Below are positions 158 through 31,757 of a stretch of 32,563 bases of DNA, in pieces. The notes beneath the pieces are model-generated. The model saw nothing but the letters and a program-made list of their open reading frames with translations. It ran no database searches and had not been told where the DNA came from. The stretch comes from Chlorobiota bacterium. GTDB taxonomy: Bacteria > Bacteroidota > Ignavibacteria > OLB7. Made by a program: the position numbers and the translations under genes. Where the stretch lies: assembly GCA_016788565.1 (NCBI GenBank), contig JAEUSP010000076.1, positions 1 through 32,563 on the forward strand. Reading direction: 5' to 3'. Numbering within the stretch: the first letter of the stretch is position 1; each line of letters starts with the position of its first letter.

Positions 158-188
158 TTGGGCGATCCGGCCAACTCTTCTATTTTTG
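158..188 (+). promoter_or_regulatory. Bacteroidota-type promoter for the B12 uptake operon
   Basis: TTGG at 158-161 and TATTTTTG at 181-188 are separated by 19 nt. They fit the Bacteroidota primary-sigma consensus (-33 TTTG/TTG, -7 TAnnTTTG). Transcription would begin near 192, just before the cobalamin riboswitch, which supports the call. Bases 1-157 contain no gene I can support. Confidence 0.55.
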
Positions 189-257
189 TCAATCGTTGCT
201 CCGATGCTTCTCCGGTTGGCCGCCGTGGCCAGCCTTGCAGACGCGCGCAACGACCGA

Positions 258-460
258 TCGAACGGTGCCCCAGCGCGTTGCTGGGGAGAATAGGGAATGC
301 CGTGCGTCCCCCCAACTAACCAAAGGGACAATTCGGCAGCGGTTGCGCCGCTGTGACGGGCGACGCTTCTTTCCACACCACACGCCACTGCTTCAAACCA
401 TTGAAGCGGGAAGGCCGGAAAGGAAGCGAATGACCCCGAAGCCAGAAGACCTGCCGTCCG
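258..460 (+). ncRNA. Cobalamin riboswitch (B12 element)
   Basis: The conserved blocks of the cobalamin aptamer occur in the right order: GGTGCC near 264, GAGAATAGGGAATGCCGTG near 286-304, the GCCACTG segment at 384-390 followed by GCGGGAAGG, and the B12 box AGCCAGAAGACCTGCC at 440-455. Cobalamin riboswitches normally repress B12 transport or synthesis genes when adenosyl- or methylcobalamin binds. Here the element precedes a B12-uptake-like operon ending in btuB, so aptamer and genes support each other. Exact ends were set by eye. Confidence 0.9.
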
Positions 461-664
461 ATCCTCATCACGATCCCAACCGGGATCAACCCCTGCGCCA
501 ACAGGGGCGGTGAGGAGATGACCTCTGGATGACTTCTGCCGAATACTCGTTGCTTCCCCGCGCTGCGCGGAAGCCGTGCAAGCTCTCCACCACGTCGTTT
601 CCCCATCCACACATTCTTGACCGTTTCCGGCTTGGCATCGGAAACACCATCCATGTGAGGTTCC
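461..664 (+). promoter_or_regulatory. Riboswitch expression platform and long 5' leader
   Basis: Several hairpins follow the aptamer: GATCCC/GGGATC around 472-487, CCCCTG/CAGGGG at 490-507, and GTTTCCG/CGGAAAC at 623-629 and 639-645. TCCTCA at 461-466 could pair with TGAGGA at 511-516, which would hide a GAGGAG ribosome-binding-like sequence. No U-run follows any hairpin, so translational control is more likely than termination. A GTGAGG near 654 precedes the first cistron. The leader also contains an ATG at 529, spaced 11 nt from GAGGAG, whose frame overlaps the first gene out of phase; I do not call it a gene. Confidence 0.5.
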
Positions 665-3031
665 ATGACGGTTTCTACCAACAACATCCGCTTCGCCAGC
701 AACGTTGCAAACAACGAACGGGGCGGGTCATTTCGTGCGGCAATTCTTGCCGCAATCCTTTCTGCGTTTGCCCTGATTGCGGCCAACACACTCCATGCCC
801 AAGTGGCTCACGTGAACGTTGGCAAAGGCCCGGCGTTCCTGTTTGCCGACACGGCGCGCAACCGTGTTCACCTGATTTCTGCCGGGGTTGATGCCAACTT
901 CAACGGCCTGCTGGACGAAGGCGAGGCCGCGCCCACCTGGTCGGTGATTGATGGCGCAACCCACCGCGTTGTTGATTCGGTAACGTTCGATGCCTTCCTT
1001 AATTCCTATCCGATTCGTGTTGGAGTGAATGCTTCGGCGGCGGAACTCTATCTGCCGCTTGGCGGGAAGGTGCAAGCCTTCGATCTGCAAACGCTGAAGC
1101 AGAAACGTGATGTCAGCTCCATTCCGGCGGTGGCGGCTTCCTTCGATCCGCTCAGCGGCCTGCTCTACCTCACCACCCGCGACCCCGGCTTCACCGGCCC
1201 AGGGGTGGTGACGGCGGTTGAGCCAGCCACCGGCACTGTTTTGGGGAAGATGGAAACGGGGGTGAACCCAGGAATGGTGGCCAGCGTGTTCGACCCCACA
1301 ATCTACGCCCCGGGCAATTTCATTTTGAACGAAGGGGCGTTTGGAAAAGGGAACGGATCAGTTACTTACACCGCAGGCAATCCGGATATCTACAAGGCGG
1401 TGAACGGCGAGAACGTTGGCGGGGGCGCAAACTTTCTTGCGACCCGTGGTGAGCGCGCCTACCTGGTGCTTGGCGGAACCCACCAAGTGCGGATTATCAA
1501 CACCCTTACTCACCGCGACGTTGCTCCATCGCCAATCGCAACCCTGACCTCCGGCTTCGATAGCCCACGCGCGGTTGCCTTCCAGGGGGATAGCCTGCTG
1601 ATTGTGGCCACCTACGCCAACGACATCCGCCGGTTTGAAACCGCCACCGGCACGCTGCGCGATAGCATCAAGCTGCAGGGGAAAGTGGAGTCGGTGGTGG
1701 TGCGCGATTCGCTGCTGTTTGCGGCAATCAAATACACTGCCGGAACCTACACCCCCGATTCGGTGGTGGCGGTTGTGAACCTGAACAGCGGCGTGGTGGT
1801 GGATACCATCGTGGTTGGCCGCGACCCGGGATTGCTTCTGCTGGACAAGCGCGGCGACGTTCACGCCATTGGCTACGGAACCGGAACCGCCGACCGCTGG
1901 TGGAAAGTCATTGACGGAACCACCCACGAAGTGAAATGGAGTCGCCAACTGAGTGGCTCCCTCGGCTTCCCGCTGCGCGCCGCCTACGATGCCGTGCGCG
2001 ACACACTCTACCTTGCGCTGGCCGATACTCTGTTCGGGTTCCCAGCTTCCACAAGCCAGGGGGCGGGGCGGGAAATCTATCACGATGCCACCGCCGCCGG
2101 GAATTTGGCCAACGTCACCGATGCCGGCAACTGGCTGTTGGTGCATGAGCTTGCAAAAGATTTTGCCCCAGGCCCAACCTACATCCACATTGTTGATAAA
2201 ACGACCGGCCACAGCGTTGGCCAATTCCGCTCTGGCGATTTCTTGACGATGGCAATCCCCGTTTCCACCGACCGCGACGGCGCAATCCGCTTGTATGCGT
2301 TGAACGAAGGGACGTTCGGTGCGGCAACCTCCAGCATCACCCTGTTCGATTACAAGGCAAATGCTTTTGGCGATTTGGGCGACGGCGCAAACCACCTGTT
2401 CGCCAACGAAAACACGGTGGCTGTCACGATGAACGGAACACACGAAGTTGCCGTGCTGGACCCCGCAACCTTCACGGTGCGGCGGCGGATTCCCACCGGA
2501 ACGTCGTCGCTGGATGGCCCGCGCGAGACGCTCCTTCTGCCAAACGGCCAGCTGCTGACCACCACCTACGCCGGCGATATCCGATTGCTGAACGACGACA
2601 CCGTGGAAGCCGTGATCCCCGTTGGCGGAAAAGCCGAAGGAATCGCCATGCTGAACAACGAACTCTACGTGGCCAACGCCTTCCTGGCCGGAACCTACAA
2701 CGCCGATTCGCGGGTGGCGGTGGTGAGCTTGGGTGTGCTGTCGGTGGAGCGGAGCGGCCAGGCCGCTGCAAGCGCGTCGCTGTCGGAAAGCGTCCCGAAC
2801 CCGGTGCGCGACCAGGCGGCGATTACCTTCAACGTGGCGCGGCAGGGGGATGTGCGGATTTCGGTGGTTGCGGTGGACGGAACCCACATCGCCACACTGG
2901 TGGATGAGCAAATGGAGCCGGGCCAATACACCGTCCGATTCGATGCCAGCACGATTCCGTCCGGAACCTACCTCTGCGCGCTGCAAACCGGAGGCAAACT
3001 GCTGACACAGATACTGAAGGTGGTGCGATGA
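665..3031 (+). CDS. T9SS-secreted double beta-propeller, BtuG-like B12-binding candidate
   Basis: The 788-residue protein has a signal peptide (hydrophobic about 24-42, likely cleaved near LHAQ at 46), two homologous halves, and a T9SS type A C-terminal sorting domain (about 705-788, ending in an SGTYLCAL...ILKVV pattern). The duplication is visible: LNEGAFG near residue 221 and LNEGTFG near 546, and both halves end in a GTYxxDSxVAVV motif. The NEGxFG motif and repeat style match YncE-like/DUF5074 propellers, the family containing BtuG, the surface lipoprotein that captures cobalamin and hands it to BtuB in Bacteroides. The upstream B12 riboswitch and downstream btuB support this role. It differs from BtuG in having two propellers and T9SS export rather than a lipidated cysteine. 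Its stop overlaps the next start (ATGA), implying translational coupling. B12 binding is inferred. Confidence 0.8.
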   Translation: MTVSTNNIRFASNVANNERGGSFRAAILAAILSAFALIAANTLHAQVAHVNVGKGPAFLFADTARNRVHLISAGVDANFNGLLDEGEAAPTWSVIDGATHRVVDSVTFDAFLNSYPIRVGVNASAAELYLPLGGKVQAFDLQTLKQKRDVSSIPAVAASFDPLSGLLYLTTRDPGFTGPGVVTAVEPATGTVLGKMETGVNPGMVASVFDPTIYAPGNFILNEGAFGKGNGSVTYTAGNPDIYKAVNGENVGGGANFLATRGERAYLVLGGTHQVRIINTLTHRDVAPSPIATLTSGFDSPRAVAFQGDSLLIVATYANDIRRFETATGTLRDSIKLQGKVESVVVRDSLLFAAIKYTAGTYTPDSVVAVVNLNSGVVVDTIVVGRDPGLLLLDKRGDVHAIGYGTGTADRWWKVIDGTTHEVKWSRQLSGSLGFPLRAAYDAVRDTLYLALADTLFGFPASTSQGAGREIYHDATAAGNLANVTDAGNWLLVHELAKDFAPGPTYIHIVDKTTGHSVGQFRSGDFLTMAIPVSTDRDGAIRLYALNEGTFGAATSSITLFDYKANAFGDLGDGANHLFANENTVAVTMNGTHEVAVLDPATFTVRRRIPTGTSSLDGPRETLLLPNGQLLTTTYAGDIRLLNDDTVEAVIPVGGKAEGIAMLNNELYVANAFLAGTYNADSRVAVVSLGVLSVERSGQAAASASLSESVPNPVRDQAAITFNVARQGDVRISVVAVDGTHIATLVDEQMEPGQYTVRFDASTIPSGTYLCALQTGGKLLTQILKVVR

Positions 3032-3978
3032 GGGAGCGAAAAACTTCATCGCCATTGTGTTTCCTGTTCGGCGCGTTCCTGCTGTTGGCGATTTCCACCT
3101 CGGCCGTTGCCCAACGCCATGCCGATACTGTTGTGATGTTCCGGCCCGGAAGCGGGCCGGGCATCGGCAGGGAAGCCGCATATTTCCCGAACAATGTTTT
3201 GGGATTACCCGACAGCAACGCCCGCCCAACCGTTCCGTCGGTGGACCCCGTGCAAATCCTTTCGCTGGGGTTGGGGGGGGAGATTGTTCTTGGATTCAAC
3301 GCGCCAATCGTGGACGGCCCGGGCCCAGATTTCACCGTGTTTGAGAACGCTTTCTTCTACAATCTTGGCGGGAAGCAGCGCACCTTTGCCGAGCCAGCCG
3401 CCGTGGCCGTCAGCCGCGATGGAGTAAGCTTCACCCAATTCCCGTTCGATTCCGTGACGCTGCTTGGTTGCGCCGGAATCACCCCCACCGATGGCCGCGC
3501 CAACCCGTTTGATCCTACCATTTCCGGCGGCGACCAGTTCGATCTTTCCACCGTTGGCCTTGACTCGGTCCGCTACATCCGCCTTCGCGACCTGACGGGA
3601 ATCGTTCTCAACAATTCCGCTCACCCGTTCTGGGACCCGACGCTTACCAGCTTCGATCTTGATGCTGTGGTGGCCTTGCACACCGCCTCCCCCGGGAACG
3701 GCAACGCCGACACCGGAGCGATTTCGCAGCCAATCTCACTCCAAATTGGCCGCGATGGCCAGGCGGTGGTGATGTTCCAAGTTTCGCAGCAATCGCAAGT
3801 GCGAGTGCGACTTTGGAACAGGCTTGGCCAGCAATCGGAGCAAGTGGTGGATGCCACGCTTCCGGCGGGGATTCACACGGTTCCGTTCCACCCGGCGGCT
3901 GGCTCCGGTATCTGGTTTTTGACGTTGGAGGAGTCGGGCAAACTGGTGGCCACCTACCCCTTTGGGGTGATGCGGTGA
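3028..3978 (+). CDS. Secreted T9SS-tailed surface protein of the B12 operon, function unknown
   Basis: This 316-residue protein begins with a signal peptide (hydrophobic 11-27, cleavage near AVAQ at 29). A globular domain follows, rich in the pattern SLGLGGEIVLGF...DGPGPDFTVFENAF, which I recognise from uncharacterised 'cell surface proteins' that recur beside btuB in Bacteroidota. The last ~80 residues read like a T9SS sorting domain (VRVRLWNRLGQ...LPAGIHTVPF...GIWFLTL). The start overlaps the previous stop and its own stop overlaps the GTG of btuB, so all three genes should be translated in a coupled way from the riboswitch-controlled mRNA. A role as an accessory B12-capture or surface-complex protein is inferred from position only. 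Confidence 0.75.
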   Translation: MRERKTSSPLCFLFGAFLLLAISTSAVAQRHADTVVMFRPGSGPGIGREAAYFPNNVLGLPDSNARPTVPSVDPVQILSLGLGGEIVLGFNAPIVDGPGPDFTVFENAFFYNLGGKQRTFAEPAAVAVSRDGVSFTQFPFDSVTLLGCAGITPTDGRANPFDPTISGGDQFDLSTVGLDSVRYIRLRDLTGIVLNNSAHPFWDPTLTSFDLDAVVALHTASPGNGNADTGAISQPISLQIGRDGQAVVMFQVSQQSQVRVRLWNRLGQQSEQVVDATLPAGIHTVPFHPAAGSGIWFLTLEESGKLVATYPFGVMR

Positions 3979-5990
3979 AACCTGGGCTTTGGCTGATGCA
4001 ATCGGTGGTTGCTGCTCTGGTGATTTTCGCGCCAATCCTTGCCCAGCAACCCGCCCCGCCCGACACGGCTACGCCCTCCGTCCGCGACACCACACGGGTG
4101 GTTCGCGGGCGTGAGGTGGTGGTGCAATCGGCCAGCGTGTTGATTCGTGAGTTGCGTTCGGCGCAGCCGGTGGCGGTGGTGGAGCGGCCACAGATTGAAG
4201 CCGCAAACGCCCGCGACCTTTCCGATGCCGTTGCCCTTTCCCCGGGGGTTTCTGTTCGGCAGTATGGCGGCCACGGCGGGCTTCGGACCGTCTCGGTGCG
4301 GGGAACGTCGGCCCAGCAAACGGTTGTGCTGATTGATGGCCTTCGCTACGGAAGCAGTGCCGGCGATGCCTTCGATTTCAGCAACATCCCCGCCGCCACG
4401 CTTGAGCGGGTGGAGGTGCTGCGCGGCGGGGATGCCGCACGGTTTGGGGCCAACGCGCTGGGGGGCGTGGTGAACATTGTCACCGCCCCCGGAAGCACCA
4501 CGTCATCCCGCGCAACCGGAACCTTGCACGTTGGTTCGTTCGGCGATTTTGGCGTTGGCGCGGGGGGGGCTGGCGGCGTTGGCAACCACCACCGGCTTGA
4601 TGGAGCTATCCATTTCACACGGGCTTCCGGGAAATATCCATTTCAGTATTCCGAGTTCGGAACCCGGCAAACTCGCCACCGCCAGAACGCTGATTTTTCC
4701 AACGTGTTTGCCCGTGGCGGGTGGTCTTTTTTGAAAGATGGGACGCGGGTTTCAGCATCGGTCCAGGGGTTCAGTTCGGAGCGGGGAACGCCAGGGGCGG
4801 TGGTGCAGGGAAGCCTTGAGCAATCGGAAGCGCGGCTGGCCGAGCGGGACTTGTTCGGCGTGGCAACCGCTTCCCTGTTCGATGCTGAATGGATGGGAAC
4901 AATCGGCGGAACAGCCCGCGCCAACTGGCTGAACTACGACGACCCCGAATCGCGACTTACCGGCCCGGAAGGAACTCACTCCCGTTTCCAGCGAACCGAA
5001 GGGACCGTTGCCGCACGGCTGCGGCGGCAGTTCGGCAGCGATGGCGCGAACGAGCGAGCGAACGATGGAGCAGTGGAGGCCAGCCTGGAGCTAAGCCACG
5101 CGCGGCTAACGGGCAACAACCTTGATCCTTCCGTTGGCCAGCGGGTGGCCCGCACGCAGTTCAGCGCGGCCGTGGCCACCGACTGGTTGTTGCAGCATCT
5201 GGTTGCCAACGATGAACTGATTCTGGAAGCCGCAATCCGTGCCGATGTTTTCTCCGATGTCGGGAACTCCATCAGCCCTTCGGTCGGGTTGAACTACCGC
5301 CCAACCGAGCTTCCGCTCCGGTTCCGATTTCACGCCTCGGGGAATTTCCGCGCCCCCAGTTTCACCGAGCAGTACTACCTCAATTATGGCAACGCAAACC
5401 TCCGCCCGGAACGCTCGATCAGCGTAGATATTGGCGCGGTGTATCAGTTCAGCGAGCGGTTCCTTGCCGACGGAACTCTATTTTTGATTGAGACGAAAGA
5501 CCTGATTCTATCGGTTCCCCGAAGCCCCGTTAGCTGGAGCGCGATGAACGTTGGCCGCGCCCGCTCGCGCGGGGCCGAGCTTGGTGCGTCGGGGACGTTG
5601 ATAGAGGATTGCCTGCGGCTACGGCTTGCCTGGACCCAGATGGACGCAAGCGACGAAAGCAGCGGAATCTTTCACGGGAAGGAGCTGCCATATTCGCCAC
5701 GGCAAACCGCAAGCGGTGTCTGCCAAGTGAAATTTGGGGAAGTCACCTGCGGCGTAATCGTCAGCTATTCCAGCTATCGTTACTCACTCCCCTCCAACTC
5801 CGTCGAATCACTCCTTCCTGGCTACTGGCTTGCGGGGGGGAACGTGGCGTATCAGTTCGCGGTTGCTTCGGTGCGGGCGGTTGCCACCGCCCAGGTGCAG
5901 AATCTGTTCGATGCTGAATATCAGGGCATCCGCAACTACCCAATGCCGGGGCGAAGTTTCCGGTTGGGGGTGGAGTGCAGGGTGAGGTGA
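3975..5990 (+). CDS. btuB: TonB-dependent vitamin B12 receptor BtuB
   Basis: An outer-membrane TonB-dependent transporter of 671 residues. The GTG start at 3975 overlaps the preceding TGA and gives a normal signal peptide (hydrophobic 5-22, LAQQ near 25); an ATG at 3996 is the alternative. The plug domain spans about 60-170 with the hallmarks LSPGVSVRQYGG, VSVRG, VVLIDGLRYG, ERVEVLRGGDAARFG and GGVVNIVT. The rest is the 22-strand beta-barrel, with NFRAPSFTEQYY and NPxLRPE-like (NANLRPERS) barrel motifs and a strand-like end. Plug and size resemble the BtuB/CirA class. Substrate assignment rests on the cobalamin riboswitch and the BtuG-like partner. No btuF/btuC/btuD inner-membrane genes follow, so the ABC importer must be elsewhere. 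Confidence 0.88.
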   Translation: MKPGLWLMQSVVAALVIFAPILAQQPAPPDTATPSVRDTTRVVRGREVVVQSASVLIRELRSAQPVAVVERPQIEAANARDLSDAVALSPGVSVRQYGGHGGLRTVSVRGTSAQQTVVLIDGLRYGSSAGDAFDFSNIPAATLERVEVLRGGDAARFGANALGGVVNIVTAPGSTTSSRATGTLHVGSFGDFGVGAGGAGGVGNHHRLDGAIHFTRASGKYPFQYSEFGTRQTRHRQNADFSNVFARGGWSFLKDGTRVSASVQGFSSERGTPGAVVQGSLEQSEARLAERDLFGVATASLFDAEWMGTIGGTARANWLNYDDPESRLTGPEGTHSRFQRTEGTVAARLRRQFGSDGANERANDGAVEASLELSHARLTGNNLDPSVGQRVARTQFSAAVATDWLLQHLVANDELILEAAIRADVFSDVGNSISPSVGLNYRPTELPLRFRFHASGNFRAPSFTEQYYLNYGNANLRPERSISVDIGAVYQFSERFLADGTLFLIETKDLILSVPRSPVSWSAMNVGRARSRGAELGASGTLIEDCLRLRLAWTQMDASDESSGIFHGKELPYSPRQTASGVCQVKFGEVTCGVIVSYSSYRYSLPSNSVESLLPGYWLAGGNVAYQFAVASVRAVATAQVQNLFDAEYQGIRNYPMPGRSFRLGVECRVR

Positions 5991-6024: not shown

Positions 6025-6249
6025 CCGTCATTGCGAGGAGTCTTCGACGAAGCAATCTCGCGGGTTTCTGGGAAGTTATACTCCAAACAGAATGGTTTGC
6101 GAAAAATCTAGTCGTTGTCATTCCCGCGAAAGCGGGAATCCATACCATACCTAGCTGAGTAGAGTTTCGCAAACCAATTTCATCCGAGTATATCGGACAC
6201 ACTGCCAGCCGCGAGATCGCCACGTCGCTATCGCTCCTCGCGATGACGG
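6025..6249. repeat. Nested inverted-repeat element (outer and inner palindromes)
   Basis: The outer arms at 6025-6063 and 6209-6249 are imperfect inverted copies (CCGTCATTGCGAGGAG... against ...CTCCTCGCGATGACGG). Inside, 6077-6192 has its own terminal inverted repeats (TATACTCC...AATGGTTTGCGAAA against TTTCGCAAACCA...GAGTATA) around the central palindrome ATTCCCGCGAAAGCGGGAAT. A close relative of the inner part lies at 17463-17565. This looks like a small non-autonomous mobile or REP/MITE-type element; no transposase is present. It occupies most of the 394-bp gap between btuB and pdxB. Confidence 0.75.
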
Positions 6250-10689: not shown

Positions 10690-12843
10690 GTGGCAGCAGA
10701 AACCAGATCGGAGAACGTCCGCACCATTGTGCTTGCGGGGCATGGTGGTGCCGGCAAAACAACCCTTGCCGAAGCAATGTTGTACGCGGCAAAGGAGACC
10801 AACCGCATGGGGCAAATCCCCGATGGATCAACCGTAAGCGATTACCACCCCGATGAGATTGAGCGTGGCATTTCGCTGATGCTTTCGGTGCTTCACGCAA
10901 ACTGGCGTGGGCACAAAATTAACCTGCTTGATGCCCCCGGATTCCCCGATTTTATCGGCGATCTGAAATCCGCCGTTCGCGTGGCCGACACCATGGTGAT
11001 GGCGGTGGATGCCAGCACCGGCGTGGGGTTCGGTGCCGATGCTGCGTGGGAATTTGCCGGCGAAACAAAAGTCCCTGTGTTGTTTGCCCTCACCAAAATC
11101 AACACCGAGCAAGCGCATTTTGAGGAGACGTTGGACTACCTGCGCGAGCATTTCAGCCGCGACATTGTCCCGCTGGAATATCCGGTGTATCAGGACAAAC
11201 AGATTTCCGCAGTGGTGAACATCTTGGAAATGAAGGCAATGAAGTTTGCCGACGACGGAAGCGGTTCCCACACCGACACCGCCGACATTCCCGCCGAGGT
11301 GCAAGCGCGCTGTGCCGAAATCCGCGAGGGGCTGATTGAAACGCTGGCCGAATCGGACGAATCACTGCTGGACAACTTCTTCAACAACGGCACATTAACC
11401 GAGGAAGAGATCGCCAAAGGGCTGAAGGCCGCGCTGCTGCAACGGAAAATCTTCCCGTTGTTTGCTGTCAGCAGCACCCAAAATATCGGCGTTACTCCGC
11501 TGATGGATTTCATCGTGGATTACTGCCCAAGCCCCATGGACCTTCCTGCGCCACCAGCTGCGGTTCCGAACAGCCCGAACGCCGTCAGCCTTCCCAAAAC
11601 ATCAGAAGGGGAGCCGGTGATTTTCATCTTCAAAACCATCAGCGAGCCGCACGTTGGCGAGCTATCCTTCTTCCGCGTCTTCCACGGCAAAGTGACCCCG
11701 GGCCTTGATTTGGTGAATGTTGATAGCGGCACAACCGAGCGGCTGAACCAAGTTTATGTGGTCAATGGCAAAAACCGCAAGGACGTTCCCGCGCTGAACT
11801 ACGGCGACATTGGCGCGGTGGTGAAATTGAAAAACACTCACACCAACAACACCCTTGCTCCAAAAGGGAAGACCGTAAAAATTCCCACCATCTGGTATCC
11901 CGCGCCAATCACCGACGCAGCCTTAATCAGCAAGGGGAAGGGGGATGAAGCAAAGGTGGCCGAAGCACTGCACGTGATGCACGAGGAGGACCCAACCTTC
12001 AGTGTCCACATGGACCCCGAGTCGCACCAGACGGTGATTAGCGGGCTGGGGGAATTGCACCTGGATGTAGTGGTGAAACGCCTGACCAACAAATACGGTT
12101 TGCACGTGGAGATGAAACCGCCCCGCATCCCTTACCGCGAAACGATTCGCGGAGCGGTGGCCACAAGCTACCGCCACCGCAAGCAGACCGGCGGGGCAGG
12201 GCAGTTTGGCGAAGTCCATTTCTACATTGAACCATACGAGGAAGGCCGCCCTGTGCCGTCGCAATATCAGGTTCGCGACCAGGAACTTGAGCCGCTTCAG
12301 TGGGGGGGGCATTTCCATTTCATCAACTCCATTGTGGGGGGGACGATTGAGGCCCGGTTTGTCCCGGCGGTGAAGAAAGGCATTCTGGAAATTCTTCGCG
12401 GTGGGGCGTACGCCGGCTACCCAATGTCGAACGTCCGTGTGGTGTTGTTCGATGGCAAGATGCACGCCGTAGATTCCAACGAAAACGCCTTCAAGACCGC
12501 AGCGCGGATGTGTCTGAAGCAAGGCATCAAAGAATGCCGACCGCAGCTGATGGAGCCGATCTGGAACGTGGAAATATCTGCCCCAGCTGACTACATGGGG
12601 GACATCATGGGGGATTTAAGCAGCCACCGTGGGCGAATCATGGGGATGGACTCCAAAGGTGCGGCACAGATCATCAAAGCCCAGATTCCGCTGGCCGAGC
12701 TCTACGGATATGCTGCCCGGTTGCGCTCGCTAACCCAGGGTCGCGGAAGCTACACCCGCGCATTCAGCCACTATGAAGAAGTGCCGAAAGAGGTGGAAGC
12801 CAAAATTGTGGCCGCCGCCGACTTGAAGGATGAGGAGGAGTAG
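10690..12843 (+). CDS. Elongation factor G-like GTPase (EF-G2 type paralogue)
   Basis: A 717-residue EF-G paralogue with a GTG start after GGAGG. The domain order is that of EF-G: G domain, domain II, III, the IV region with the YRETIRG and GGAGQFGEV motifs, and V near the end (MDSKGAAQIIKAQIPLAELYGY). G1 is intact (GHGGAGKT, 17-24), but G3 is DAPGF (81-85) where translational EF-G has DTPGH, so the GTP-hydrolysis His is Phe. G4 is TKIN (135-138) instead of NKxD. The window also encodes the canonical fusA at 28155, so this is the second copy. Paralogues of this class are described in several bacteria with roles distinct from canonical translocation or not established. Own promoter and terminator; it is monocistronic. 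Confidence 0.9.
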   Translation: MAAETRSENVRTIVLAGHGGAGKTTLAEAMLYAAKETNRMGQIPDGSTVSDYHPDEIERGISLMLSVLHANWRGHKINLLDAPGFPDFIGDLKSAVRVADTMVMAVDASTGVGFGADAAWEFAGETKVPVLFALTKINTEQAHFEETLDYLREHFSRDIVPLEYPVYQDKQISAVVNILEMKAMKFADDGSGSHTDTADIPAEVQARCAEIREGLIETLAESDESLLDNFFNNGTLTEEEIAKGLKAALLQRKIFPLFAVSSTQNIGVTPLMDFIVDYCPSPMDLPAPPAAVPNSPNAVSLPKTSEGEPVIFIFKTISEPHVGELSFFRVFHGKVTPGLDLVNVDSGTTERLNQVYVVNGKNRKDVPALNYGDIGAVVKLKNTHTNNTLAPKGKTVKIPTIWYPAPITDAALISKGKGDEAKVAEALHVMHEEDPTFSVHMDPESHQTVISGLGELHLDVVVKRLTNKYGLHVEMKPPRIPYRETIRGAVATSYRHRKQTGGAGQFGEVHFYIEPYEEGRPVPSQYQVRDQELEPLQWGGHFHFINSIVGGTIEARFVPAVKKGILEILRGGAYAGYPMSNVRVVLFDGKMHAVDSNENAFKTAARMCLKQGIKECRPQLMEPIWNVEISAPADYMGDIMGDLSSHRGRIMGMDSKGAAQIIKAQIPLAELYGYAARLRSLTQGRGSYTRAFSHYEEVPKEVEAKIVAAADLKDEEE

Positions 12844-21402: not shown

Positions 21403-21614
21403 GAATGTCGAATGTCGAATGTCGAATGTCGAATGTCGGATTCTTTCAACTGACCACTGACCACTGACCACTGACCACTGACCACAATCCATCAGTGAGG
21501 GGAATGCCGAATGTCGAATGCCGAATGCCGAATGCCGAATGTCGGATTCTTTCAACTGACCACTGACAACTGACTACAATCCATCAGTGAGGGGAATGTC
21601 GAATGCCGAATGCC
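21403..21614. repeat. Composite heptamer repeat array (two tandem composites)
   Basis: Five GAATGTC units (21403-21437), a spacer GGATTCTTTCAA, five CTGACCA units (21450-21484), then CAATCCATCAGTGAGGG. The whole block then recurs with six GAATGYC units (21502-21543), the same spacer, three degenerate CTGACMA units and the same tail, followed by three more GAATGYC units. It fills the gap between two convergent genes. No coding sense: a 7-nt unit gives the same 7-residue peptide repeat in every frame. Confidence 0.92.
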
Positions 21615-24487: not shown

Positions 24488-24737
24488 AAATGCCGAATGT
24501 CGAATGCCGAATGTCGAATGCCGAATGTCGAATGCCGAATGCCGAATGTCGAATGCCGAATGTCGAATGTCGAATGCCGAATGTCGAATGCCGAATGTCG
24601 AATGCCGAATGTCGAATGCCGAATGTCGAATGCCGAATGTCGAATGTCGAATGCCGAATGTCGAATTGATTCTTTCAACTGACAACTGACCACTGACCAC
24701 TGACAACTGGCCACAATCCATCAGTGAGGGGAGTGTC
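24488..24737. repeat. 25-unit GAATGYC array with CTGACMA tail
   Basis: Exactly 25 heptamers (24488-24662), reading GAATGCC or GAATGTC (the first is AAATGCC), are followed by GAATTGATTCTTTCAA, about six CTGACMA-like units and CAATCCATCAGTGAGGG. This is the same composite order as at 21403. Unit types mostly alternate C,T,C,T with three breaks, implying amplification of a 14-bp pair. It lies between convergent lipM and the methyltransferase-like gene. Confidence 0.93.
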
Positions 24738-28154: not shown

Positions 28155-30269
28155 ATGCCACGCCTGTATCCACTCGATAGAGTTCGCAACATCGGCATCA
28201 TGGCGCACATTGATGCCGGCAAAACAACAACAACCGAACGCATCCTGTACTACACCGGTGTGCTTCACCGCATTGGTGAGGTCCACGATGGTGCTGCAAC
28301 CATGGACTACATGGAGCAGGAACAGGAGCGCGGTATCACGATCACATCGGCAGCAACAACCTGCTTCTGGAAAGGATCAAAATCCCATTTCCCAGAGCAC
28401 CGCATCAACATCATTGACACCCCAGGCCACGTTGATTTCACCGTCGAGGTGGAGCGTTCGCTTCGGGTGTTGGACGGCGCGGTTGCCCTGTTCTGCTCGG
28501 TTGGCGGTGTGGAACCCCAATCCGAAACGGTGTGGCGGCAAGCCGATAAATACAACGTCCCGCGTATCGCCTTTGTGAACAAGATGGATCGTGTTGGTGC
28601 CGACTTCCTGAAGGTTGTCGGGATGATCCACGACCGGCTTGGCGCAAACGCTGTCCCGCTGCAATTGCCAGTTGGGCAGGGTGATATGTTCAAGGGGATT
28701 GTTGACCTGATTGAGTGGAAAGCCTACATCTTCGACGACTCGAGCCAGGGGGCAAAGTGGGATGTGATTGATATCCCCCACGACATCGAAGAGCAAGCAA
28801 AAGAGTACCGCACCAAGATGCTGGAAGCGGTTGCCGAAGTTGATGACACCCTGTTGATGAAATATCTGGACGGGGAAGAAATCTCGCCGGAAGAAATCCG
28901 CAAAGTGTTGCGCGAAGCCTGCTTGCAGGTGAAGATCATTCCGGTGATGCTTGGCTCCAGCTTCAAAAACAAAGGTGTGCAACAGTTGTTGGATGCCGTC
29001 TTGGAATTCCTTCCATCGCCGATGGATGTGGGAACCACGCCGGGCCACCACATGGACTCCGACGATCACGTCGAGCGTCAGCCATCCGATGCCGAGAAGT
29101 TTTCCGCACTGGCCTTCAAGATTATCACCGATAAATTCGTTGGCAAGCTGACATTCATCCGCTTGTACTCCGGAACTCTGTCGGCTGGCTCCTACGTTCT
29201 GAACACCATCACTGGCAAGAAGGAGCGCGTTGGCCGTCTGCTGCGGATGCACGCCAACCACCGCGAGGACATTGACGAGGCATACACGGGGGACATCGTT
29301 GCAGTGGTCGGTTTGAAGGCAACAAAAACCGGCGACACGCTCAGCGATGAGGCAGATCCGATTGTGCTGGAGAAAATGGAGTTCCCAGACCCGGTGATTG
29401 ACCAGGCAATCGAGCCAAAAACAAAGGCCGACCAGGACAAGTTGGGCGAAGCTCTTGCCAAGCTCAGCGAAGAGGATCCAACCTTCCGCGTGAAGACCGA
29501 TGAGGAGACCGGGCAGACGATCATCTCCGGCGTTGGCGAGCTTCACTTGGACATCATCGTGGATCGTATCCGCCGTGAGTTCCGTGTGGAAGCAAACGTT
29601 GGCAAGCCACAGGTTGCCTACCGCGAAACCATCCGCGAGACGGTGAACCAGGACACCAAGTTCGTCCGTCAGTCGGGTGGTAAAGGGCAGTATGGCCACG
29701 TGGTGATTGAGTTCGGCCCGAACGAACCAGGCAAAGGCTTCGAGTTCGTCAATGCCATTGTTGGCGGTGTGATTCCAAAAGAATACATCAAGCCGGTGGA
29801 GCAGGGGATTACCGAGGCATTGCGTAATGGTGTGCTTGCTGGCTTCCCGGTGGTGGACATCAAAGCAAAGCTCCATTTCGGTTCCTACCACGACGTGGAC
29901 TCATCGGAAATGGCCTTCAAAATTGCCGGATCCATGGCATTCAAGGAAGCCTGCCGCAAGGCAAAGCCGGTGCTGTTGGAGCCGATCATGGCAGTGGAAG
30001 TGGTGACACCGGATGAGTACATGGGCGACGTGATGGGCGACCTTTCCAGCCGCCGTGGCCGCATTGAAGGGATGGTGCAACGCCACGATGCCCAGGTGAT
30101 TCGGGCAATGGTTCCCCTTTCGGAGATGTTCGGCTACGTTACCACGTTGCGCTCCATCACGCAAGGCCGCGCAATCCCTTCGATGACCTTCGACCACTAC
30201 GAAGCCGCGCCAAAATCGGTGCAGGAAGAAGTGGTGGAGAAAAGCGGCAAGGCAGCAATCGCAGCCTAA
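28155..30269 (+). CDS. fusA: Elongation factor G
   Basis: The 704-residue canonical translocase. G1 is AHIDAGKT (17-24), G2 region QERGITI (57-63), G3 DTPGHVDF (88-95) with the catalytic His, and G4 NKMD (142-145). Domain IV and V motifs ([30 protein letters not shown]) are intact. It contrasts with the paralogue at 10690, which lacks the G3 His and NKxD. No Shine-Dalgarno precedes the ATG; tuf follows after 109 bp. Confidence 0.98.
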
Positions 30270-31686: not shown

Positions 31687-31714
31687 GAATGTCGAATGTC
31701 GAATGTCGAATGTC
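31687..31714. repeat. Four-unit GAATGTC heptamer array
   Basis: Four perfect GAATGTC units lie downstream of the str terminator, without the CTGACMA half of the composite. This is the shortest GAATGYC array in the window. Confidence 0.9.
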
Positions 31715-31757
31715 GAATCAAGAATGAGAAGAATCTTGGAGTTGTTCCCGAACGCCG

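Follow-up and report, generated by a model that had tools for sequence, protein, structure and literature searches.

A 788-amino-acid (aa) protein encoded behind a cobalamin riboswitch on contig JAEUSP010000076.1 of a Chlorobiota bacterium (assembly GCA_016788565.1) contains two propellers, each of which is, by sequence comparison, a circular permutation of the vitamin B12-binding protein BtuG, with the later blades placed ahead of the blades that carry the NEG motif. We refer to the whole contig of 32,563 nucleotides, contig C44 of a 4.58-Mb genome, as the window; coordinates are window positions unless another contig or locus is named, and residue numbers refer to the 788-aa protein. The permuted double propeller carries a type IX secretion system (T9SS) tail, and we consider it likely to capture additional cobamide, at the cell surface or after release, and to feed it to the receptor BtuB, rather than to act as the lid of this receptor.

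Two complete propellers in one secreted protein

The following features make up the gene of the 788-aa protein.

665-3031, forward strand: 788-aa secreted protein with signal peptide, two permuted BtuG-type propellers and T9SS tail
800-1798, forward strand: propeller 1 (residues 46-378), C-part followed by NEG-part, containing the DANFNGLLDEGE loop (unit profile, 446 bits; AlphaFold2 model)
1799-2755, forward strand: propeller 2 (residues 379-697), permuted order as in propeller 1, without the DANFNG loop (unit profile, 406 bits; AlphaFold2 model)
1298-2278, forward strand: stretch bridging both halves, in classical BtuG order (profile A10 against BtuG1 and BtuG2)
2795-3001, forward strand: T9SS type A C-terminal sorting domain (residues 711-779; PF18962, E 3.5e-6, above the gathering score)

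Residues 46-378 and 379-697 could be aligned with 31% identity (E 5e-28). A first-pass annotation, made from the sequence alone, had located NEG motifs at about residues 221 and 546; they begin at residues 222 and 547, and each half also contains one end-of-half motif, GTYTPDSVVAVV at residue 360 and GTYNADSRVAVV at residue 676. The half profile A2 matched the two halves with 446 and 406 bits, both sequences being among the profile's own rows. Pfam and NCBIfam barely recognise the permuted propellers.

An AlphaFold2 model of residues 44-788, calculated from 21 alignment rows, had a pLDDT of 84.5 and a pTM of 0.59. As determined with VIA-align, model residues 1-333 and 330-648 each match a whole seven-bladed propeller (YncE, WDR5) with Z scores of 28-30, reaching 29.7 for propeller 1 and 29.3 for propeller 2, and root mean square deviations of mostly 2.2-2.9 Å. 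According to this model each half is one complete closed seven-bladed propeller, and the mutual placement of the two propellers is uncertain at the given pTM. A different partition, in which propellers bridge the halves (residues ~216-540), was rejected because in the model residues 44-376 and 373-691 each form a closed propeller, with limits that recur in single-propeller relatives. BtuG was absent from the best 50 Foldseek matches in the PDB, where large double propellers rank first, and from the 50 VIA-align matches listed, which comprise YncE and WD40 propellers; neither absence is counter-evidence.

The N-terminus resembles a signal peptide and contains no cysteine, so there is no lipobox. 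The T9SS tail reported in the first-pass annotation was recovered with PF18962 at 27.6 bits, the cut-off being 27, and tails of this type were matched at more than 100 places in the genome (E up to 1).

Circular permutation of BtuG

When the whole protein was compared with solved structures, the match to BtuG started at residue 218, meaning that the N-terminus of BtuG corresponds to the middle of the first half. The unrotated half profile met classical BtuGs as two pieces in swapped order, whereas most of the same BtuGs were matched in one piece by a profile rotated at the NEG boundary. At locus L017 the rotated profile scored 108.9 bits over model positions 6-326, compared to 70.9 plus 24.1 bits without rotation, and on the classical BtuG of the host (L091) it spanned positions 6-324 with 75 bits. 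A scan of the rotation point in 12-column steps, evaluated by the summed bits over 12 classical BtuGs, gave a single smooth maximum at columns 180-192, which is the NEG boundary (688 and 679 summed bits), compared to 559 summed bits for the unrotated profile and 361 at the worst rotation. With the best rotation, the matches covered a mean of ~280 of the 331 positions, rising to 318-321 in the best cases.

As the halves are permuted, the segment bridging them has the BtuG order, and its profile A10 matched the solved structures of BtuG1 (8ptf, E 2.7e-30) and BtuG2 (8baz, E 9e-17); the unit profile matched BtuG with E 6e-22. Single-propeller relatives of 425-536 aa show the identical permuted order and limits, which indicates that the permuted unit is a real domain. 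The description of the halves as BtuG-like propellers in the first-pass annotation was thus right with respect to homology, but it missed the circular permutation. Blades are internal repeats for which shifted partial matches are common, but an artefact of blades aligned out of register is very improbable in view of the single maximum at the NEG boundary and of the matches listed beyond the class, which cover the NEG part only or run in classical order. A search of open-licence papers for circular permutation in connection with cobalamin propellers gave nothing on point.

Distribution, riboswitch linkage and duplication

Permuted units, single or double, were counted by hand in 75 of 391 genomes of the class, among the matches listed. 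In a survey of 395 genomes of the phylum, the matches listed outside the class were confined to the NEG part or showed the classical order, and among the genomes sampled the permuted gene appears to be found only in this class. The first-pass annotation had proposed a link to B12 riboswitches, and the survey bore this out: in all 41 distinct genomes checked, window included, the permuted gene encodes one or two propellers and has a cobalamin riboswitch directly ahead of it (6/6 for L003-L008, 21/21, 20/20 and 5/5 for L110-L114, with duplicates removed and L088 left out). Since the riboswitch at 246-472 is the sole one of its kind detected in the whole window genome, the linkage is not due to chance.

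The genes that accompany the permuted gene vary. In L070 and L071 the riboswitch is followed by the permuted double, a homologue of the 316-aa protein encoded next in the window, BtuB and a classical BtuG lipoprotein, and L080 has the same gene set with BtuB ahead of the 316-aa homologue. A permuted single, a 316-aa homologue and a classical BtuG are present in L081 and L082, and the permuted gene is followed by BtuB in L072, L074, L076, L078 and L079. No B12 partner adjoins it in L073, L075 and L090. In genomes G055 and G019 a separate operon (L097, L099) unites the genes for BtuB, the 316-aa homologue and classical BtuG, and the permuted gene is located elsewhere. Genome G383 contains three consecutive double-propeller permuted genes behind one riboswitch (L114:775-7956).

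In a tree of the window's family, first halves cluster with first halves and second halves with second halves (SH-aLRT 99-100), which places the duplication before the origin of this family. Doubles from other families tend to cluster with single forms. In approximately unbiased (AU) tests, the arrangement of all first halves as one clade was mildly rejected (p 0.038) and that of all double halves together was not rejected (p 0.12). These results suggest, without being decisive, that more than one independent duplication occurred. When the two species of the window's genus were compared, half 2 proved no less conserved than half 1 (90% and 89%).

Coexistence with classical BtuG

BtuG has been described as a lipoprotein confined to Bacteroidetes (PMC6143338, PMC10404256). 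The host genome encodes such a classical BtuG of 377 aa at C20:33644-34708 (L091:6624-7709; E 3e-105 with the classical BtuG profile), which has a lipobox-like LFVGC sequence. Its gene adjoins an RNA methyltransferase gene, and no btuB or riboswitch was found on the sequenced stretch examined around it. A strong classical BtuG match accompanied the permuted form in 66 of 75 genomes, among the matches listed and sometimes in the same operon, which makes the permuted protein an addition in most genomes. The assumption that this lineage uses a T9SS protein instead of a lipid anchor, as put forward in the first-pass annotation, could therefore not be maintained.

An exchange of this kind appears to have taken place elsewhere. 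Seven classical-order BtuGs from other Bacteroidota classes (L100, L102-L107) combine an ordinary signal peptide with a T9SS-type tail, which would replace the lipid anchor. Their genes adjoin a BtuB-type receptor gene, and on the stretches examined a riboswitch lies upstream in L103. T9SS delivery alone is thus not novel. T9SS-tailed classical BtuGs were undescribed in the open-licence papers retrieved for T9SS with BtuG or BtuB, and the same type of literature yielded no relevant paper on Kapabacteria and cobalamin.

Partial conservation of the BtuG cobamide pocket

Cobalamin is gripped in BtuG2, as if by pliers, between the loop N54-T64 (NEGNFQYSNAT) and the loop beta5A with Tyr239, and blades 1-4 contribute the hydrogen bonds (PMC10404256). 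The window protein has retained the NEG loop in each half (NEGAFGKGNGS and NEGTFGAATSS). Pocket positions, given in BtuG2 numbering, were compared in 8 first halves, 7 second halves and 23 singles. E55 is kept in 8/8, 6/7 and 22/23 of these, respectively, E180 in 8/8, 7/7 and 21/23, and P132-R133 in all aligned permuted units. Aromatic residues are common at the positions of W194 and W272, and the second halves keep an aromatic residue at 194. At the position of beta5A, singles and first halves possess a D-x-N-F-[ND]-G loop, the D236 position being kept in 23/23 singles and 8/8 first halves. The corresponding sequence DANFNGLLDEGE of propeller 1 (890-925, residues 76-87) sits where BtuG2 has its mobile B12-clamping loop and, like the D-x-N-F-[ND]-G loop in general, resembles calcium-binding loops.

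Proposed function and alternative explanations

We propose that under B12 scarcity the riboswitch would permit expression of the double propeller, which the T9SS would carry across the outer membrane to the surface or release. The propellers would catch cobamides via the NEG-loop pocket as in BtuG, and the vitamin would be handed over to the co-transcribed BtuB, either directly or through the classical BtuG lid; cobamide binding, surface location and hand-over route are what we infer. Since the classical BtuG lipoprotein is kept in the genome, the most likely role of the permuted protein is to increase capture capacity, as BtuH and BtuJ do in Bacteroides.

Several observations weigh against this proposal. 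Half 2 of the window protein lacks the loop that aligns with BtuG2 beta5A (Y239 region), a loop missing in 4/7 second halves, the window's included, and the NEG motif is lost in half 2 of L005 and of L006; one propeller may consequently not bind. The lack of an opposing clamp loop in half 2 makes the binding of two cobalamins, suggested in the first-pass annotation, less likely, and the likeness of the pocket to that of BtuG2, which comes from a low-identity alignment, can serve as a lead only. Moreover, 9 of the 75 permuted-form genomes have no strong classical BtuG among the matches listed, so the permuted protein could be the sole one in some species.

An explanation compatible with an additional capture protein, and one that we regard as a serious possibility without favoring it, is that just propeller 1 binds cobamide and that propeller 2 was repurposed, for example for docking on BtuB or for holding the protein at the surface. 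The distribution of the D-x-N-F-[ND]-G loop, retained in propeller 1 and the singles and absent from the second halves mentioned above, points in this direction, but the second halves keep E55, P132-R133, E180 and the aromatic residue at 194, and no excess divergence of half 2 over half 1 was seen in the two species compared above.

We consider it rather unlikely that the downstream BtuB has the permuted double as its lid, with the unlinked classical BtuG being a relic or the partner of a different receptor. The permuted gene is indeed the BtuG-type gene adjoining btuB in the window and in L072, L074, L076, L078 and L079, and the classical BtuG gene of the host stands beside the RNA methyltransferase gene, apart from any btuB or riboswitch on the stretch examined. 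However, the same operon includes a classical BtuG lipoprotein in L070, L071 and L080, and in L097 and L099 btuB is located with the classical gene and the permuted gene elsewhere. Furthermore, the lipidated N-terminal linker of BtuG was described as the possible hinge of the BtuB lid (PMC6143338, PMC10404256), whereas in the permuted protein both chain termini are located at another blade and the tether is C-terminal.

Also unlikely is a more specific form of the capture proposal, in which a T9SS-released or surface-located two-site scavenger would load two cobamides and deliver them to the classical BtuG-BtuB gate, the permutation having shifted the tether to the other chain end, off the lid hinge. 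An improbable alternative is a protein that binds a non-cobamide ligand, such as an adhesin, and is merely B12-regulated: a variety of ligands is known for propellers, and the top structural Z scores belong to those of the YncE type, but the homology is specific to BtuG, pocket positions are kept, and btuB follows in the operon of many relatives.

Operon and genomic context

The remaining parts of the locus are as follows.

246-472, forward strand: cobalamin riboswitch aptamer RF00174 (cmscan, 101.1 bits, E 2.1e-24, full model 1-189)
473-664, forward strand: leader from the aptamer to the gene; a stable CCCCTG/CAGGGG hairpin adjoins the aptamer (fold z-score -2.6)
3028-3978, forward strand: 316-aa secreted protein, distant relative of the LIC_13355 lipoprotein (NF033170, below cut-off)
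3975-5990, forward strand: BtuB-type TonB-dependent receptor with a GTG start overlapping the preceding gene (TIGR01779; BtuB1 8blw_A)

Behind the riboswitch lie three genes that overlap at their ends, encoding the 788-aa protein, the 316-aa protein and the BtuB-type receptor, and the leader is a possible expression platform. The first-pass annotation had given the same order of riboswitch, two-half protein, second secreted protein and btuB, which was confirmed by RF00174, the open reading frame, the alignment and TIGR01779, and it had correctly taken the gene to be B12-regulated and beside btuB; its start of the locus at position 158 was too early. In the receptor, the TonB plug and barrel domains (PF07715, PF00593) were matched. 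TIGR01779 was the best NCBIfam match (E 5e-54) yet remained below the family cut-off, and the closest solved relative is BtuB1 of B. thetaiotaomicron (8blw_A, E 3e-46). The gene that follows, at ~6385, resembles erythronate-4-phosphate dehydrogenase genes and has no relation to the operon. A B12-repressible cobamide-uptake operon is the best explanation of the locus. The genome contains a B12-dependent methionine synthase, with one apparent in-frame stop within the matched region, and a search of the genome for CbiC gave no match, which together fit a B12 importer.

No domain was detected in the 316-aa protein by a Pfam scan. NF033170, the LIC_13355 lipoprotein family, was matched in 8/8 members of its family, below cut-off and with a best E value of 9e-10. 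The T9SS tail assigned to this protein in the first-pass annotation is likely, though less certain than claimed there, because TIGR04183 tails were found in just 4/8 aligned members. Homologues occur in L070, L071, L077, L080, L081, L082, L094, L097, L099 and L113 and adjoin BtuB and/or BtuG-type genes in several families; the protein is probably an accessory of B12 uptake and a candidate new component. Its AlphaFold2 model (pLDDT 54) was not used.

Named relatives that belong to the same families carry the labels Candidatus Kapaibacterium, Chlorobiota, Ignavibacteria or unplaced Bacteroidetes metagenome-assembled genomes, and the nearest named relative is filed as "Armatimonadetes". We take the host group to be a little-studied Kapaibacteria-like branch of Bacteroidota, its exact rank being our interpretation.

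Other features of the window were also recorded. Behind btuB, at ~6077-6193, lies a dispersed repeat of ~117 bases with ~40 genomic copies of 88-100% identity, which resembles a small mobile element or a REP-like one. Short arrays of 7-base units (GAATGTC, GAATGCC or ACTGACC) are located at 21403-21541, 24489-24714 and 31687-31726, the longest having 178 bases. Two differing EF-G-type genes are present at 10690-12843 and 28155-30269, the latter adjoining an EF-Tu gene.

Comparison with known systems

The window protein resembles BtuG2 and BtuG1 of B. thetaiotaomicron (PDB 8bmx, 8blw, 8ptd, 3dsm) in being a homologous seven-bladed propeller that is riboswitch-controlled, associated with btuB, and equipped with the NEG clamp loop and several of the pocket positions. 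It differs from them by its permuted order, its tandem propellers, the T9SS tail in place of a lipobox, and its coexistence with a classical BtuG. BtuG is further characterised by very tight corrinoid binding, for which the pocket positions are partly kept in the window protein, and by a stable complex with BtuB in which it acts as the lid. The T9SS-tailed BtuGs of L100 and L102-L107 share the BtuG-type propeller, the T9SS-type tail and the location beside a BtuB-type gene, but are unpermuted single propellers. E. coli YncE is a seven-bladed propeller with the top structural Z score of 29.7, yet only 15% identity over the alignment, and to our knowledge has no B12 link.

As a natural permutant, the protein has its chain ends moved and its anchor swapped to the other end, and it is often duplicated. 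It would separate two roles that are otherwise joined in BtuG, the catching of B12 and the closing of the gate, and offers a ready test of which of them requires the anchor. A precedent for two sites is the BtuG1-BtuH fusion of B. thetaiotaomicron, a surface protein with two B12-binding domains (PMC10404256), but there the second domain has the BtuH fold instead of a propeller and the protein is a lipoprotein. BtuH, BtuJ/DUF4465 and BtuK of Bacteroides are, likewise, extra capture proteins beside BtuG in B12-regulated operons (PMC8941943, PMC12751083, PMC13398666), but they are lipoproteins and not BtuG-type propellers. B12 scavenging in deep-branching Bacteroidota would employ more kinds of capture protein than have been catalogued.

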